A stretch of DNA of 39,721 bases from Spirulina sp. CS-785/01 (lineage in GTDB: Bacteria > Cyanobacteriota > Cyanobacteriia > Cyanobacteriales > Spirulinaceae): NCBI RefSeq assembly GCF_028330525.1, contig NZ_JAQMSD010000311.1, positions 1 to 39,721 of the forward strand, read 5' to 3'. Numbering within the stretch: the stretch's first letter is position 1; every line of letters begins with the position of its first letter. Positions 7,343 to 15,449 of this stretch are shown here, piece by piece. The notes beneath the pieces are model-generated. The model was not told the DNA's origin, made no database searches, and saw only the letters and a program-made list of their open reading frames with translations. The position numbers and the translations under genes were made by a program.

Positions 7343-8323
7343 TTAAGAATTCCGGTCAGATTGCGATCGCCGTCTCACTCGTTCAATTTCCTCCTGTAAC
7401 GCCTCAATCTGCCGTTTCAGAGCATCCACCTCACTCTCTGTATCGTGGGACTCCACATCCACAGACCCTTCCGTGGTCACATTATGATAATTCCCTTGGC
7501 GAATTTGCTGATATTGTTCCGACTGTTGCCACCCTTGTAGATAGTGGAGACGTTCCACCGGAAACGGATGAGACAAAAACGCCCCTTGTCCCCCATTGTA
7601 AATCAGAAATTTATAAAACTGGTTCAACTCATCCTTATCCAAATCGAGATAGCGATGAGACTGTTGCTGAAACTCCTCCAAACTACATTCATGGGCATAT
7701 TTCTGACTTCCCCCGGCCACCTTCATCATAGTTTGCATCACCAAATCCAAATCTTCCATCACCAACAAGGCCGCCCGATCTGCCGATAATTCTGCCTTGC
7801 GTCGCCACTCATAAAAGGAAAACAGCAACCCACTACTGAGTAAATTCCCCAACCCTAATGTAATATCCCCTAAAAACTGCGTGGCCGTCATTGCCCACAC
7901 TGCCATCTGCATTAACACCGTATGGCCACATTTAACATGGCCTAACTCATGGGCAATCACCGTGCGAATTTCCGCCTCACTCAAATGATCCACTAACCCC
8001 GTATTAATCACAATCGACGGATGATCCGTCCCCAGGGAATAACTATTCACCTGGGCATCCTGACTGATAAACAAAGTCGGTTCACCCGACACACTTAAAT
8101 CCCGCACACATTCTCGAAACATCCCGTAGAGGGTGGAATACTGACGCGGGCCCACTTGGATATAATTCCCCATAAAGTAAACGTAGCGAGGCCGTTCGTG
8201 GAAATACTCCACAAAATTTTTCGCGAGCAGTTCAAACCCCGGAACACTGCGTAGGGTTTGTTCCGCTTGAGAGTCTAGGGGATGACGGAAGGCTTTACTG
8301 GACAGTCCGGGATAGGTGGCCAT
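7343..8323 (-). CDS. M48 family zinc metallopeptidase
   Basis: The 326-residue protein carries the zinc motif HELGH at residues 125-129, followed by a third-ligand region with AELSADRAALL (about 179-189). This is the HtpX/Ste24-like M48 arrangement. Hydrophobic stretches just after the active site (about 136-170) could be membrane-associated, but there is no N-terminal membrane hairpin as in HtpX. The C-terminus (about 295-326) is a charged coiled coil. The family contributes to membrane protein quality control; the substrate is unknown here. It ends next to a HIP1 site at about 7363 and lies 73 bases downstream of the fasciclin gene on the same strand. Confidence 0.9.
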   Translation of the reverse strand: MATYPGLSSKAFRHPLDSQAEQTLRSVPGFELLAKNFVEYFHERPRYVYFMGNYIQVGPRQYSTLYGMFRECVRDLSVSGEPTLFISQDAQVNSYSLGTDHPSIVINTGLVDHLSEAEIRTVIAHELGHVKCGHTVLMQMAVWAMTATQFLGDITLGLGNLLSSGLLFSFYEWRRKAELSADRAALLVMEDLDLVMQTMMKVAGGSQKYAHECSLEEFQQQSHRYLDLDKDELNQFYKFLIYNGGQGAFLSHPFPVERLHYLQGWQQSEQYQQIRQGNYHNVTTEGSVDVESHDTESEVDALKRQIEALQEEIERVRRRSQSDRNS

Positions 8324-8396
8324 GGTGAGGATTCCAACATTAAGGCTTCTTTAGCCCATTTTAATCATTGTCTGACCCTCTCGGACACAATCAGTC

Positions 8397-8801
8397 CTAT
8401 CCCATTAAAATTACACCGTCGATCACATGAATCACCCCATTATCCGCCTCAATATCCGTGGCGATGGCCGTAGAATTTTTCACCTCTAACCCGGCTTGGG
8501 TATGATAGAGAGGGATCGGCGACCCTTCGACGGAAATTAACTCGCTTTTTTGTTCTAAGTCCGCCTTCATCAGCTTTCCAGGGACGACATGATAGGTGAG
8601 AATGCGTCCCAACTGGGGGGGACTTTTCACCAAAGACTCGACGGTCCCCGGAGGCAGTTTCGCAAATGCCTCATCATTGGGGGCAAACACCGTAAACGGC
8701 CCCGGACTTTGCAAGGTTTCCACTAACCCGGCCACCTTCACTGCTGTCACCAAGGTTTCAAAAGACCCTGCACTCACCGCAATTTCAACAATATTGGGCA
8801 T
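8397..8801 (-). CDS. Fasciclin (FAS1) domain protein
   Basis: A single FAS1 domain of 134 residues with both conserved boxes: H1 as [15 protein letters not shown] (about 36-50) and H2 as [13 protein letters not shown] (about 121-133), plus the YHV motif between them. There is no signal peptide or lipobox, so unlike many bacterial FAS1 proteins it appears cytoplasmic unless exported by another route. FAS1 domains mediate adhesion or protein contacts; the role in cyanobacteria is poorly known. It is followed by the M48 protease gene on the same strand, 73 bases away. Confidence 0.92.
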
Positions 8802-9023: not shown

Positions 9024-10601
9024 TTATTTTAATTTGGCGATCGCGCCCTGTTCCACCAATACCCGATTCGTTAATAAATCCGTCACCGTTGCCAGCAAAA
9101 CGCGCTTCTCATCCACCTCAAACTCCACCGAAATGCGATCCATCCCCACCTGGCCACTGGGGTCTAAATGCGCCACACAGACCGCTTTCTGATGACTCTG
9201 GAGGGGACGGTATTGGGATTGACGGTTTAACTTACTACTCGACATCCGGCCCATCTCATCGTAAGTCACCTCCGCTTGATTAAATTCGGCTAACTCGCCA
9301 ATATCTAAGCGAATTTCCCGTTGTCCCTCTTTGGCCACCTGTAAGGTTAACGCTTCCTCTCGTTTACAAGGGTAAGCACTCCCCTTTTCAAACAAGGGAA
9401 AAAAGGAATAACTGCGCGTCACAGGTTCCCACAGTCGAATGGCGTAACTGTGGCGCAAATAGTCGTCCATTTGGGACACTTGAGTCAGGGTGAGGGCCCC
9501 ATGACAAACGGCCTCGAAGGGATTATCCAGTTTAACCCGCGATCGCCCGAAATATAACTTAATCAAATTCTGCACTGCCGGAATTAAACAACTCCCCCCC
9601 ACCAGCAACACCTGTTCAATGTCACTTTTATTAATCCCTTTCCCCAAAGCAGTGGTGATCACCTCATCAATAGCTTCTCGCAGTTGCTCCAAAAACTGAT
9701 TTTCTTCTAAAATTTCCTCTAACTTGTCCCGACTCAGAGATAAGTCATAGGACATAAAGGTTTCTTCATCCAACCAACTTTCCGCCGCTTCTTCTTGGTT
9801 GGACAGTTGCACCTTCAACCGTTCCGCAATTTCCAATAAATTTTGCCAACTGGTGGCCGAGAGGTCTTCCCGTGATGCCCCCATGTTGCGTAAATAATCT
9901 TCTATAATCCAAATATCAATATCTTCACCGCCGATATAAGCATCTGCTTTGGCAATAGTTCGCGCTTTTAAAGTATCTTCTTGGCCACGGACACTTTGAG
10001 TGCGCACTAAACTTAAATCTAATGTTCCCCCTCCAAAGTCAATGACTAAAACCAGTGACTCGGGCCGCTGGATGGAATACCCCAAGGCCGCGGCGGTGGA
10101 CTCATCCACAAAGCGGACTTTTTGTAAGCCAATTTTTTCCACCCAGTCCCGAAACCAATTAATATAGCGTTCAAACGCACCGACGGGGACGGTAAAAATT
10201 AATTCTGTGGGGTTAATTTGTAAGTTTTCTAATTCCTGCCAAATTTGCTGTAAAAATTGTTCGGCCACCCGTTTTGCTTCGTATTCTGTGCCATCAATGA
10301 CACGGGGTGGCATTTGGAAATCTGCCGCCAAATCCCGTTTAAAATTCTTGAATAGCCGTTGCGGTTCTCGAAGTCCGAGACGTTGCGATCGCACGGTTTC
10401 CCCAATCAAAATTTTATCCGTTCCCTGCACAAAAAACAAACTCGGAATCACCGGAACTAAACCCGACTCTCCCCCTGGTACGGTATAGGAAAAAAGACGA
10501 GAAAAGCTAGGAAATCTTAAAGTTTTAGCCGTTTGGGTCTCCGGTTCAAGCAGACTAACAACCGTGTTACTGGTCCCAAAATCAATGGCAACGGTGGTCA
10601 T
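9024..10601 (-). CDS. Hsp70 family protein (non-canonical DnaK-like)
   Basis: The 525-residue protein has the Hsp70 ATPase domain: phosphate-1 motif IDFGTSNT (6-13), TVPVGAF (137-143), DESTAAALGY (166-175), phosphate-2 motif DFGGGTLD (188-195) and the adenosine motif LLVGGSCLIP (about 338-347). It is about 110 residues shorter than DnaK, with a reduced C-terminal part and no EEVD-like tail, so substrate binding is likely different. It follows a gene for a GrpE-like protein (86-base gap) and a DUF2997 gene, all minus strand. The natural reading is a specialised chaperone with its own exchange factor. No J-protein gene is adjacent. The ATG at 10601 gives the expected start MTTVAIDFGT. Confidence 0.93.
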   Translation of the reverse strand: MTTVAIDFGTSNTVVSLLEPETQTAKTLRFPSFSRLFSYTVPGGESGLVPVIPSLFFVQGTDKILIGETVRSQRLGLREPQRLFKNFKRDLAADFQMPPRVIDGTEYEAKRVAEQFLQQIWQELENLQINPTELIFTVPVGAFERYINWFRDWVEKIGLQKVRFVDESTAAALGYSIQRPESLVLVIDFGGGTLDLSLVRTQSVRGQEDTLKARTIAKADAYIGGEDIDIWIIEDYLRNMGASREDLSATSWQNLLEIAERLKVQLSNQEEAAESWLDEETFMSYDLSLSRDKLEEILEENQFLEQLREAIDEVITTALGKGINKSDIEQVLLVGGSCLIPAVQNLIKLYFGRSRVKLDNPFEAVCHGALTLTQVSQMDDYLRHSYAIRLWEPVTRSYSFFPLFEKGSAYPCKREEALTLQVAKEGQREIRLDIGELAEFNQAEVTYDEMGRMSSSKLNRQSQYRPLQSHQKAVCVAHLDPSGQVGMDRISVEFEVDEKRVLLATVTDLLTNRVLVEQGAIAKLK

Positions 10602-10663
10602 TTTGGTTTGTTTTTTGTTGTTTCTTCTTGGTTCTTTGGTGTTTCTTCTTTGTTAAACTATCC

Positions 10664-10684
10664 TATTACCTATTACCTATTACC
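10664..10684. repeat. Heptanucleotide repeat TATTACC x3
   Basis: Three exact TATTACC units in the gap between the GrpE-like and Hsp70 genes, ending just before the stop codon at 10688 (minus strand). Same STRR class as other heptamer runs in the window. Confidence 0.85.
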
Positions 10685-10687
10685 AAA

Positions 10688-11611
10688 TTAAGTATTGGGT
10701 AAATAACGACTTACTTTAGCAGGACAAAGAATTCTATCACCCTCTCGATATCCGACAAAACGAATATAAACAGGTTCACCCGCTTGAATATCGGGACTAT
10801 CGGGTTGATGGAGTTGGGGGTCAAACGAGACCTTTTCCCATGCTGACCCAATAGGTTCATATCCCCAAGACTGGAGTAAATTCTTTAAGGGAGTAAACAA
10901 CGGGATAAAATTTTTCGCAGGTAAAGCGGGTTTACTCTGGGCCATTACCGTGGCCGTGGGATAATTCATTAATAACGTTTGTAACTGCTCAAACGTCGCT
11001 TGCTTGATATCTTGGGGGAGTTGCTGACTTTGTTGCTGGAGTTCATTGCGGAGTCTGCGACATTGTTGTTGGAGTTGCGTTACCTCATTTTGGGCCGTTT
11101 GTAACTCCTCTTGGAGTTGCTGTTGTTTCGTGGCGAAGGTTTCGGCCTGTTGACTGGTCTGTTCTAAATTAACCTGTTTCTGCTCCGCCTGTTGCTCCAA
11201 TTCCTGTTTTTCTTGCAGCAGTTGCCGATATTTCTGGTGCAGTTTGGCAATTTGTTGGAATGCTTCCCCCAAGGACGGGAAAGAGACATCATAATTTTGT
11301 AAAAATTCCTCTAATGTCCAGTTGAGGAGTTGGGCGACTCGTTGCATTTGTTGCCAAGTCAAATTGTCCAACTTTCCCTGACGGAGTTGGAGTAGTTGCC
11401 GGGGGGTGAGGCCGGTTTTCCGTTGGAAGGTTGACCAATAGGTAATTCCTACTGTTGCCAAGCGATCGCGCAACATTGGATCAGCCTCATACTGACAAGT
11501 AATGGCCTCCTCCTGTTGCGTTTTTGACCCAAACAAGCTGAGGGCAAATGCCGTCCCGGCCACCCAAAGGACTAAACCAAACCAGAAGAGATTGGGGTCT
11601 CCTTCTACCAT
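10688..11611 (-). CDS. Membrane-anchored HTH / coiled-coil / GrpE-like protein
   Basis: This 307-residue protein has four parts. Residues 8-28 are hydrophobic (FWFGLVLWVAGTAFALSLFG), a likely N-terminal membrane anchor or uncleaved signal. Residues about 65-107 (GLTPRQLLQLRQGK and on) look like an XRE/HTH-type helical domain. Residues 115-200 are a Gln/Glu-rich coiled coil. Residues about 250-304 resemble the C-terminal beta domain of GrpE: a YEPIG start, FDPQLHQ, and GDRILCPAKV, where canonical GrpE has 'vDP-x-x-H' and 'RvLRPA-x-V'. GrpE releases ADP from Hsp70. The adjoining Hsp70 gene downstream strongly supports this reading. The HTH may be a protein-contact domain and not a DNA binder. 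Confidence 0.75.
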   Translation of the reverse strand: MVEGDPNLFWFGLVLWVAGTAFALSLFGSKTQQEEAITCQYEADPMLRDRLATVGITYWSTFQRKTGLTPRQLLQLRQGKLDNLTWQQMQRVAQLLNWTLEEFLQNYDVSFPSLGEAFQQIAKLHQKYRQLLQEKQELEQQAEQKQVNLEQTSQQAETFATKQQQLQEELQTAQNEVTQLQQQCRRLRNELQQQSQQLPQDIKQATFEQLQTLLMNYPTATVMAQSKPALPAKNFIPLFTPLKNLLQSWGYEPIGSAWEKVSFDPQLHQPDSPDIQAGEPVYIRFVGYREGDRILCPAKVSRYLPNT

Positions 11612-11652
11612 TGCTCTCCCTTAATGTGTTTTCCCTTGCTATTGTCCGTCAT

Positions 11653-11877
11653 TTACTGCTGTTGTTCTAGAGACTGGGTTTGTTCCTCCACTTCCAGCAC
11701 AGCGTCGGGGTTTTCATAATAGGCTGGTAACAGTTCTTGATCTTCGACCGTTCCCAGTGCGGACTCAATATCTTGCGTCATTTCCGTACATTGTTGGCCG
11801 CTGACTCCTTCGAGAACAGTTTCGGTAATTTTGCCGTTTTTGCCGATACGATACTCAATCTTTTGATATTCAGCCAT
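11653..11877 (-). CDS. DUF2997 family small protein
   Basis: A 74-residue acidic protein that fits the DUF2997 family: the N-terminal strand pair EYRIGKNGKITETVLEG (8-24), a conserved Cys (C30 in GQQCTEMT), then an E/Q-rich C-terminus. Family function is unknown; in cyanobacteria it often sits near DUF1257/Ycf35 and chaperone-like genes. Here it leads a unit with the GrpE-like and Hsp70 genes (41-base gap). A GTAGGGAGTT ribosome site lies just before the ATG at 11877. The divergent gene at 12056 leaves a 178-base shared upstream region. Confidence 0.8.
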   Translation of the reverse strand: MAEYQKIEYRIGKNGKITETVLEGVSGQQCTEMTQDIESALGTVEDQELLPAYYENPDAVLEVEEQTQSLEQQQ

Positions 11878-12055: not shown

Positions 12056-13225
12056 ATGTACGCACTTCGACTATTTGCGATCGCTGTTGCCACTCTCTTA
12101 GTCACACAAGTCGCCCACGCCCGTGACCCTCAGCCTAGCTTACAACGTTCTACACAAGTGGCTCAAAACTCAAGCACCTTATTCCCGGTGTCGGACTTGT
12201 CCTACGAAGAACAACTCCTCCGGGAGATCAACCGGGCCAGAGCAAACCCTAATTCCTATGCGGACTGGCTCGAAGGACAGCGACAATACTATGATGGCCA
12301 AACCCTAGACTTACCAGGAGAACCCCCTATTGAAACCCAAGAAGGGGTAGAAGCGTTAAATGAAGCGGTACGTTTTCTCCGCAATACCCGTCCTTTACTT
12401 CCTTTAGCACTCTCGGAAGGACTCTCCCAAGGAGCATCCCAAAAAGTGACTAATGAAGATGTGGATGCTTCAATTAATGGGGGAGAATTGATCAGAGTGA
12501 TCAGTCGTTATGGGACGGTAAACGGACCGTTAGCGGTTGATATCAAGGACAGTGAGACTACTCCCCAGAGTACCGTGTTGATGATGATTATTGGGGATGG
12601 AGATGCTAGTCGTAGTCACCGCAAGAAAATTTTCAATATTGATTACAAATATTTAGGGGTGGGTTGTGAAGAATTAACCGAACCTAACCCTCTCTGTGTG
12701 TTTGCCTATGCAGGGTCTTATGTAGAGAATTCCGCTAATGAAGGCCCCATTGTTGCTAATCCCGAAACTCCCGAAACTCCCGAAACTCCAGAAACTCCTG
12801 AAACTCCAGAGACTCCAGAAACCCCAGAGACTCCAGAAACCACAGAAACACCGAGTAACACCAGTTCAGAAATTTTACTGGTAAAACAAGGGGTTTTAGC
12901 CGAAGGAGAGTCCTTGGTGTATCCCGATGATAATACCTTATACAACGAGCATATCTTCCGGGGACAAGCGGGCCAAACCGTCACCGTGCGCTTAGAAAGT
13001 TCCGAGTTTGACACCTTTTTAGCCATTTTTGATGAAGCGGGGGAAGTCTTGGGACAAAATGATGATGCCACCGATAACACCAGTAACTCTACTGTCACCT
13101 TAACCCTTCCGGCAGATGGGGTGTATCGGATTTTTGTCAATGGGTATAATCCCAGCGATCGCGGTCGTTATACTGTAGTTATTGAAGAAGGTGATGAGAA
13201 TAACGCCAACTCTAACAATAACTAA
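12056..13225 (+). CDS. Secreted CAP-domain protein with PET linker and PPC domain
   Basis: The 389-residue protein begins with a signal peptide (about 1-22, ending AHA). Residues about 48-225 are a bacterial CAP/SCP-PR1 domain: LLREINRARANPNSYADWL opens it and a SRSH histidine near 185 and LGVGC follow. The first CAP histidine expected after the 'L-x-x-A-A' helix seems missing (GASQKVTNEDVD). Residues about 237-262 are a P-E-T repeat linker. Residues about 278-378 form a PPC-type beta domain with FDTFLAIFD and DNTSNS. Bacterial CAP proteins are extracellular, with lipid-binding or unknown activity. A strong terminator follows. The role is not known. Confidence 0.9.
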   Translation: MYALRLFAIAVATLLVTQVAHARDPQPSLQRSTQVAQNSSTLFPVSDLSYEEQLLREINRARANPNSYADWLEGQRQYYDGQTLDLPGEPPIETQEGVEALNEAVRFLRNTRPLLPLALSEGLSQGASQKVTNEDVDASINGGELIRVISRYGTVNGPLAVDIKDSETTPQSTVLMMIIGDGDASRSHRKKIFNIDYKYLGVGCEELTEPNPLCVFAYAGSYVENSANEGPIVANPETPETPETPETPETPETPETPETPETTETPSNTSSEILLVKQGVLAEGESLVYPDDNTLYNEHIFRGQAGQTVTVRLESSEFDTFLAIFDEAGEVLGQNDDATDNTSNSTVTLTLPADGVYRIFVNGYNPSDRGRYTVVIEEGDENNANSNNN

Positions 13226-13391: not shown

Positions 13392-15449
13392 ATGAGCTAC
13401 TGTATTAATCCTGATTGTCCCCAACCTGAAGACCCTGTAAACCGCGATCGCGCCACTTGTCTCCATTGTGAGTCCTCCTTGTTAATCTGCGATCGCTATC
13501 GAGTCGTGAAATTAATCAACGAAAACAGTGGGTTTGCCAAAATTTACCAAGTCGAGGAATCGGGGATTCAGAAAATCCTCAAAACCCTCAAACGACGGCA
13601 CAACAGCAACCCCAAAGCCGTTGACTTATTTCGTCAAGAAGCCATAGTCCTCAGCCAACTCAACCACCCCGGTATCCCCAAAGTCGAAACCGAGGGATAT
13701 TTTCAATATTATCCCCATAACAGCAGCGACCCCCTCCACTGCTTCATCATGGAGAAAATCGACGGGCCCACCCTACGGGAATGGATGTTCCAACAGGGAA
13801 ACCTGCTGATCAGCGAACAACAAGCCTTAGACTGGCTCAAACAAATTGCCGAAATCCTCCATTTAGTTCACAGTAAGAACTATTTTCACCGGGATATCAA
13901 GTTACAAAATATTATGATGCGGTCCACCGGCCAATTAGTCTTAATTGACTTCGGCACAGCGCGGGAAATGACCTACACCTATTTAGCTCAAGTCGGAAGT
14001 TCCGGCAATATTACCAGAGTCAGTTCCGCCGGATATACCCCCCCAGAACAACAAAAAGGTCACGCCGTCCCCCAATCGGACTTTTACGCCTTAGGCCGCA
14101 CCTTTGTGTACTTATTAACCGGGAAACAACTAGAAGACAGCGAAATTTATGACCCCTACACCGACGAATTTAACTGGCGAAACCACGCACCCGACATTTC
14201 CCCCGAATTAGCCGATTTTATCGACCGTTTAATGGCCCATCGGGCCGCAGACCGACCCAGAGACACCCAAGAAATTTTAGACAGTATTGCTCAAATTCGA
14301 CAAAATATTTACCCCCATCCCTCCATGCGAGGCTTTGAGCGCATCCCCACCACCGAAATTCAATTCTCCCCCGACAGTCCCACCATCCCCGAAGAACACC
14401 TCCCAGAGGAGTCCCTAGAGGAGTCCATAGAGGAGTCCACCTCCCCCAAATGGCTTTTAGGTCTTTTACTCCCGTTTTTACTCCTTATCGGCGGTGCTGG
14501 CGGCTTCTGGGTGTATCAATGGGTGACTCCTCTACTCATGCAGGCCGGACGAGTGGAACAACAGGACCAAGCCATTCAACACCTCGAAGATCACACCAGT
14601 TTTGTTAACGATGTGGTCATTAGTCCCGATGGCAATTGGTTAATTAGTGCCAGTGCCGATAAAACCTTAAAAATTTGGGATATTAACACCGGAGAATTAA
14701 AAAAAACTCTCGACGGCCATACCAGCTTTGTGGATGAAGTGGTTATTAGTCCCGATGGGGGAACATTGGTGAGTATCAGTGCCGATAAAACCGTCCGCAT
14801 ATGGGACTTTCCCGCAGGTACAGCACGCCATGTTTTAGAAGGCCATTCCGGGTTCATTCACTCGGTTGCCATTGCTTCAGATGGTCAAACCTTAGTCACC
14901 GGAAGTGCAGATAAAACTATTCAAGTTTGGAATTTGGATACTGGGGAAAATTTATACACCTTAACGGGACATTCGGGGTTTGTCAATGCGGTTAAAATTA
15001 GTGCAGATAGTCAAATTTTGGCCAGTTGTAGTAATGATAAAACCATTAAAATTTGGAATTTAGCGACGGGGGAAGCATTACGCACCATTGAAGGCCATGA
15101 GGGGTTTGTCAATGATTTAGCCATTAGTTCAGATGGGACTTTGTTGGTGAGTGCTAGTGCAGATCATACGGTGCGTTTGTGGCAGGTAGAAACGGGGAAA
15201 GAGTTATATAAATTAACCGGCCATGAGAATACGGTGGAGAAGGTTAAAATTAATGAAACTGGACAAGTTGTGTTTAGTAGTAGTCAGGATCAAACGATTC
15301 GGTTATGGGATACTAAAACGGGTAAAATGCTGCAAGTTTTAGAGAATTATGAGCATCATATTGATTATTTTGCGGTGAGTCCTGATGGTCATTTTGTCGC
15401 TACGGGAAGTGGTGGGAATATGATTCAACTTTGGCGCATTAAAGTGTGA
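13392..15449 (+). CDS. Serine/threonine protein kinase with C-terminal WD40 propeller
   Basis: The 685-residue protein starts with a small Cys cluster (C4, C9, C23, C26), likely a zinc ribbon. The Hanks-type kinase domain (about 36-305) has a weak glycine loop (ENSGFAKIYQV), a candidate ATP lysine in KILKTLK, catalytic HRDIKLQN (166-173) and DFG (186-188), so it should be active. A single membrane helix (about 354-376) follows an acidic linker. Seven WD40 repeats (about 391-685), each ending in IWD, VWN, LWQ or similar, make one full beta-propeller. The topology puts kinase and propeller on opposite sides of the membrane, so the propeller may sense an external ligand. Such fusions are frequent in cyanobacteria. 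Confidence 0.95.
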   Translation: MSYCINPDCPQPEDPVNRDRATCLHCESSLLICDRYRVVKLINENSGFAKIYQVEESGIQKILKTLKRRHNSNPKAVDLFRQEAIVLSQLNHPGIPKVETEGYFQYYPHNSSDPLHCFIMEKIDGPTLREWMFQQGNLLISEQQALDWLKQIAEILHLVHSKNYFHRDIKLQNIMMRSTGQLVLIDFGTAREMTYTYLAQVGSSGNITRVSSAGYTPPEQQKGHAVPQSDFYALGRTFVYLLTGKQLEDSEIYDPYTDEFNWRNHAPDISPELADFIDRLMAHRAADRPRDTQEILDSIAQIRQNIYPHPSMRGFERIPTTEIQFSPDSPTIPEEHLPEESLEESIEESTSPKWLLGLLLPFLLLIGGAGGFWVYQWVTPLLMQAGRVEQQDQAIQHLEDHTSFVNDVVISPDGNWLISASADKTLKIWDINTGELKKTLDGHTSFVDEVVISPDGGTLVSISADKTVRIWDFPAGTARHVLEGHSGFIHSVAIASDGQTLVTGSADKTIQVWNLDTGENLYTLTGHSGFVNAVKISADSQILASCSNDKTIKIWNLATGEALRTIEGHEGFVNDLAISSDGTLLVSASADHTVRLWQVETGKELYKLTGHENTVEKVKINETGQVVFSSSQDQTIRLWDTKTGKMLQVLENYEHHIDYFAVSPDGHFVATGSGGNMIQLWRIKV

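Follow-up and report, generated by a model that had tools for sequence, protein, structure and literature searches.

A conserved three-gene unit of a lidless Hsp70, a GrpE-like protein with a membrane helix and a DUF2997 protein, and its co-occurrence with an LGG-tagged protein family

The gene unit and its surroundings

We examined a stretch of 39,721 nucleotides (the window) from Spirulina sp. CS-785/01 (contig NZ_JAQMSD010000311.1), whose genome assembly comprises 5.4 Mb in 351 contigs. The window holds a minus-strand unit of three genes that code, in order of transcription, for a DUF2997 protein of 74 aa, a 307-aa protein and a 525-aa Hsp70, with intergenic gaps of 41 and 86 bases and GGGAG-like ribosome sites upstream of the DUF2997 gene and the 307-aa gene. 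All three frames of an earlier note on this DNA are confirmed by the list of open reading frames, and the DUF2997 protein scores 61.6 bits against PF11211 (cutoff 24.1). The features are as follows.

11653..11877, minus strand: DUF2997 protein, 74 aa (PF11211, 61.6 bits)
10688..11611, minus strand: 307-aa HTH/GrpE-like protein with predicted membrane anchor (open reading frame, Pfam, orthologue alignment)
11528..11587, minus strand: N-terminal transmembrane helix, about residues 9-28, predicted N-out/C-in (hydropathy, K/R count; helix 6-28 in the model)
11294..11479, minus strand: XRE/Cro-type HTH, residues 45-106 (PF13443; xre-like folds, Z up to 7.5)
11027..11278, minus strand: long coiled-coil helix, residues 112-195 (predicted model)
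10697..11005, minus strand: GrpE-like domain, residues 203-305, with a DP..HQ...GY..GDR beta part (Pfam, profiles, orthologues, Foldseek)
9024..10601, minus strand: Hsp70-like protein, 525 aa, without the C-terminal helical lid (PF00012, 124.4 bits; alignment with DnaK)
9471..10601, minus strand: nucleotide-binding domain, about residues 1-377, with K88, E167 and T193 invariant (alignment with DnaK)
9438..9467, minus strand: interdomain linker, about residues 379-388, DDYLRHSY-type instead of the VLLLD of DnaK (alignment with DnaK)
9027..9434, minus strand: putative beta-type substrate-binding domain, about residues 390-525 (alignment with DnaK; sequence only)

Downstream of the unit, positions 7343-8801 hold M48 peptidase and fasciclin-domain genes. 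On its other side lie a PPC-domain protein with a long PET repeat (ETPETPETP) and a weak CAP match (12056-13225), and a Ser/Thr kinase-WD40 repeat fusion with an N-terminal zinc-ribbon-like stretch, which does not carry the LGG tag described below (13392-15449). Genes for the RuBisCO large subunit, ycf46/ycf35 and fed7-type genes were recognised by eye in contigs of the source genome. A search of viral_contigs returned no viral relatives, and a search of genome_contigs returned two relatives only.

The lidless Hsp70

Alignment with DnaK shows that the catalytic positions K88, E167 and T193 are invariant, that the linker is degenerate, and that the sequence stops after the beta domain, leaving no helical lid. 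Against the NCBIfam DnaK equivalog TIGR02350 the protein reaches 113.7 bits, far below the cutoff of 822.55. The single-sequence structure prediction failed (mean pLDDT 33.5), and the domain reading therefore rests on the alignment. In two other genomes, an Hsp70 of the window's type lies inside open frames of ~850 aa (G003:C10:22396-23898 and G027:C117:35586-37112), which suggests a fusion.

Kinship of the 307-aa protein with GrpE

The homology of the 307-aa protein to GrpE is established at the level of sequence, with its relatives bearing out the weak match of the protein itself. The protein itself scores 22.4 bits against Pfam GrpE (PF01025), under the cutoff of 25.8, while the open frame scanned gives 26.9 bits; 26 of 35 orthologues match PF01025, the best at 3e-9. 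A soluble HTH-GrpE-like paralogue, which aligns with the window family at a probability of 100 (hhalign), yields a profile that matches E. coli GrpE (1dkg) at 1.9e-4 across the DP..HQ...GY..R region. These matches uphold the GrpE-like C-terminal domain proposed in the earlier note. In the PDB, the window-family profile itself matches coiled coils for the most part, with GrpE (4ani) as a marginal match at E 0.59. A predicted model of the 307-aa protein, built from a three-row alignment, is of modest quality (mean pLDDT 68, pTM 0.28); its best eight Foldseek matches are all GrpE, with E of about 0.02 to 0.06, and the top VIA-align rows cover the HTH region only. The model is thus only consistent with a GrpE fold. 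A GrpE-like domain of the window's type is also contained in a 1124-aa protein at another locus (L083, 3145-6519).

Membrane helix and HTH

Each of the 35 aligned orthologues has a hydrophobic helix near its N-terminus, the set being made up of the window protein, others of its order and two Symploca contigs. By the positive-inside rule, the orientation of such a helix can be read from K/R counts, and over the 35 orthologues we counted 2 K/R in the 15 residues before the helix and 68 after it, which puts the GrpE domain on the cytoplasmic side. Canonical GrpE is soluble, a trait from which the 307-aa family departs by its predicted helix, and the suggestion that the exchange factor is anchored in a membrane, with its GrpE domain facing the cytoplasm, is supported by these sequence signals. 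We found no description of a membrane-anchored GrpE in the open-access literature searched.

The constant part of the orthologues is the membrane helix and not the HTH. In the 307-aa protein, HTH_26 scores 23.2 bits against a cutoff of 22, and the fold matches of this region are xre-like, with Z up to 7.5. Orthologues near 180 aa consist of the helix, a short coil and the GrpE-like domain, having lost the HTH, a domain that only some family members carry, whereas the GrpE-like domain is retained throughout. Since many orthologues keep the helix but have no HTH, the latter cannot generally replace a J-protein, and that idea of the earlier note finds no support as a general rule. In three loci of other orders (L121, L127, L128), the protein has HTH and GrpE parts and no helix.

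Conservation of the unit

Window-type Hsp70s were defined by at least 50% identity within the order (reaching down to 45% in the class set) and GrpE-like genes by a bit score of at least about 110 within the order and 118 within the class; these cut-offs on identity and bit score, like those on E, were chosen after the lists were seen. Among 147 genomes of the order, the Hsp70 was found in 35 and the GrpE-like gene in 45, with both in 34, the Hsp70 only in 1, the GrpE-like gene only in 11 and neither in 101. One genome, G003 (44% identity, 433 bits, an 849-aa frame), is not part of the Hsp70 set; including it gives 34/36. Co-occurrence is strong (P = 1e-22; within-family permutation P = 5e-5), the permutations being the fairer test here and below since the genomes are related and Fisher values overstate their independence. 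In 30 of the 35 genomes, no more than 2 kb separate the Hsp70 from a GrpE-like gene. The expectation that the genes would be conserved together was thereby borne out, and the three-gene chaperone unit is confirmed as real and widely conserved. A correlation of 0.87 between Hsp70 and GrpE-like distances was set aside as evidence, being expected from co-inheritance.

Across 52 loci, the genes found near the Hsp70 were GrpE-like (42, a count biased upward by loci fetched for their GrpE match, the figure of 30/35 being unbiased), DUF2997 (27), DUF1257/Ycf35 (20), Ycf46-type AAA+ (17) and tagged genes (20). The ycf46, ycf35 and LGG-tagged genes of these related loci lie outside the three-gene unit first noted. 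In L127 and L128, ycf46, DUF1257, DUF2997, GrpE-like and Hsp70 genes form a single same-strand series, with genes touching or overlapping in L127 and two tagged genes inside the series in L128. Ser/Thr-kinase/WD40 neighbours seemed associated at first, a signal to which tagged WD40 proteins contributed in part. A motif scan of 53 loci with a window-type Hsp70 found no J-domain ORF, in agreement with the earlier observation that no J-protein is adjacent.

The LGG...LGG tag and its co-occurrence with the Hsp70

In related loci, neighbouring genes code for proteins that share an N-terminal tag. It consists of a proline-rich lead, DAVLGG, some ten residues and AVLGGxxGVKxRL, followed by a short ARM/HEAT-like stretch. 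The tag is fused to WD40, FGE, LRR, LRV or pentapeptide domains, and receiver and carrier domains are also found in tagged proteins. At E up to 1e-3, a threshold that admits a few weak or HEAT-only matches, Hsp70 and tag occur together in 34 genomes of the order, with the Hsp70 only in 1, the tag only in 15 and neither in 97 (P = 2e-20; within-family permutation P = 5e-5), and the link holds at all genome sizes. In 256 genomes of other orders, the corresponding counts are 69, 1, 8 and 178 (P = 4e-52; within-family permutation P = 2e-4). Joint transfer of a gene island can be a source of such co-occurrence. A tagged gene is found no more than 10 kb from the Hsp70 in at least 16 of the 35 genomes (0.57 expected). 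In one clade (f55/g108), the Hsp70 is accompanied by a single tagged protein and the window-type GrpE-like gene is missing; the anchored factor is thus not needed everywhere, and the pattern suggests that the link between Hsp70 and tag is tighter than that between Hsp70 and GrpE-like gene.

The source genome has two tagged WD40 proteins, both on contigs other than the window, which itself contains no tagged gene; a third match was not counted, as it is confined to the HEAT part of the model (positions 36-70). Elsewhere, a long row of tagged genes lies beside the Hsp70 unit (L100, G115:C68:90000-106000) in a genome with 27 tag matches, and the row includes receiver-tag-carrier-protein and pentapeptide fusions. 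A limited search of the open-access literature returned no description of the unit or the tag.

Proposed mechanism and alternatives

Hsp70s usually accept many clients and rely on J-proteins to direct them. The Hsp70 of this unit has no adjacent J-protein, no lid, an exchange factor that appears to be tied to a membrane, and a genomic distribution that matches that of a tagged family almost perfectly. We propose that 1) the 525-aa Hsp70 would act as an ATP-driven, lidless peptide-binding switch, 2) the 307-aa protein would be its GrpE-family exchange factor, tied by the N-terminal helix to a membrane, at which nucleotide exchange, and hence client release, would take place, 3) Ycf46 (AAA+), Ycf35 and DUF2997 of the fuller loci may belong to the same pathway, and 4) proteins with the N-terminal DAVLGG...AVLGGxxGVK tag would be the preferred clients or partners, the tag being read by the Hsp70 or, alternatively, by Ycf46, Ycf35 or DUF2997. 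That the Hsp70 and the 307-aa protein form a functional Hsp70/exchange-factor unit is probable, and the dedicated pair that the earlier note envisaged is supported to that extent. The whole reading, in which a dedicated, usually membrane-tethered Hsp70 system serves tagged proteins as clients or partners, is evenly balanced in our judgement; counting against it are the window GrpE score under the Pfam cutoff, the absence of the helix in L121, L127 and L128, and the location of the source genome's tagged genes outside the window. Recognition of the tag by the unit's machinery stands, to our minds, about midway between probable and improbable, and this previously unnamed family may be clients of the chaperone. 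More tentatively, and with the balance somewhat against it, DAVLGG...AVLGGxxGVK might be an address tag read by the lidless Hsp70 itself (with Ycf46, Ycf35 and DUF2997).

If the tag is a client signal, the unit would offer a system for testing Hsp70 specificity that is encoded in the client, as well as a possible pathway for the unexplained Ycf46, Ycf35 and DUF2997; if the address-tag reading is true, it would represent a bacterial, sequence-tag-directed and membrane-tethered Hsp70 pathway.

The unit might instead be a general Hsp70/GrpE variant at the membrane surface, serving membrane protein biogenesis, with the tagged proteins merely sharing its genomes or islands. Cyanobacterial DnaK3 does bind thylakoid membranes (PMC7281324), and many tagged genes lie in the same variable islands, but we consider this unlikely, given that tag and Hsp70 match almost perfectly in independent orders, that this match withstands permutation within families and holds whatever the genome size, and that many tagged genes lie far from the unit, both of those in the source genome included. 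By analogy with MoxR-vWA and GTPase-Hsp70 systems, it is also conceivable, if quite improbable, that Hsp70/GrpE and Ycf46 would form an NTP-driven switch over tagged effectors or sensors in a conflict- or defence-type system. The variety of tagged domains (WD40, FGE, LRR, LRV, pentapeptide, receiver, carrier) and the up to 27 matches per genome would fit such a role, as would the chaperone-based systems with varied effectors, hypervariable FGS domains included, that PMC7159879 describes; however, a scan of ten tagged proteins found no toxin or nuclease domain, and many genomes have a single tagged protein. It is highly improbable that the 307-aa protein is a membrane scaffold whose HTH or GrpE-like part docks the actin-fold Hsp70 as RodZ does MreB, since many orthologues dispense with the HTH and always keep the GrpE-like domain, even though the architecture of transmembrane helix plus HTH and a fold match to the RodZ HTH-MreB complex (2wus, Z 6.3, one of many similar) resemble that system.

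Comparison with known systems

Returning to the dedicated Hsp70 system proposed above, the unit shares with canonical GrpE-DnaK-DnaJ the Hsp70 ATPase residues, a GrpE-family domain with DP..HQ and GY...R, and adjacent genes, but differs in an exchange factor that carries an HTH and a predicted membrane anchor, in having no adjacent J-protein, and in an Hsp70 without lid and VLLLD linker. DUF2997 has been recorded beside ycf35 and fed7 (PMC4284462), and red algal plastids have retained ycf46 and ycf35 (PMC5940233). The fuller units contain paralogues of DUF2997, DUF1257 and Ycf46, whereas the DUF2997-ycf35-fed7 cluster and the ycf46-ycf35 pair of the source genome have no Hsp70 or GrpE-like gene. 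In conflict-type neighbourhoods with other cores, Hsp70 and GrpE genes also neighbour further components; these GAP1-N2-type NTP-dependent systems, as far as the consulted part of their description goes, differ from the unit in their core and in having GTPase partners as well as DnaJ fusions, with no mention of Ycf46 (PMC7159879). The likeness to RodZ-MreB, in which an HTH protein tied to the membrane partners an actin-fold ATPase, would be one of analogy only, as RodZ has no GrpE domain.

In Nostoc punctiforme, 5 DnaK homologues, 14 DnaJ and a single GrpE were counted (PMC9239167), so that this GrpE count seems to leave out the GrpE-like kinds described here. Besides the window Hsp70, the source genome encodes three long DnaKs, a 738-aa Hsp70 and a 536-aa paralogue. 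The 536-aa type is roughly 37-44% identical to the window Hsp70 (38% for the source genome's own copy, similar in length) and occurs, like the soluble HTH-GrpE-like protein, in most genomes searched. The latter protein shares HTH and GrpE-like domain with the 307-aa protein; unlike the window pair, these two paralogues have no helix, are near universal in the order rather than patchy, and lie on separate contigs of the source genome (C75 and C4), the soluble protein at L046 4183-4803 and the 536-aa Hsp70 at L047 4041-5651. The 738-aa Hsp70 belongs to a second Hsp70 cluster (L045, C31:24000-40000), in which, with gene names assigned by eye, it is accompanied by a zinc-ribbon/TM protein, a 907-aa protein, a J-like protein of 229 aa and a GrpE-like protein of 163 aa, followed by radical-SAM and MotA/MotB-like genes.
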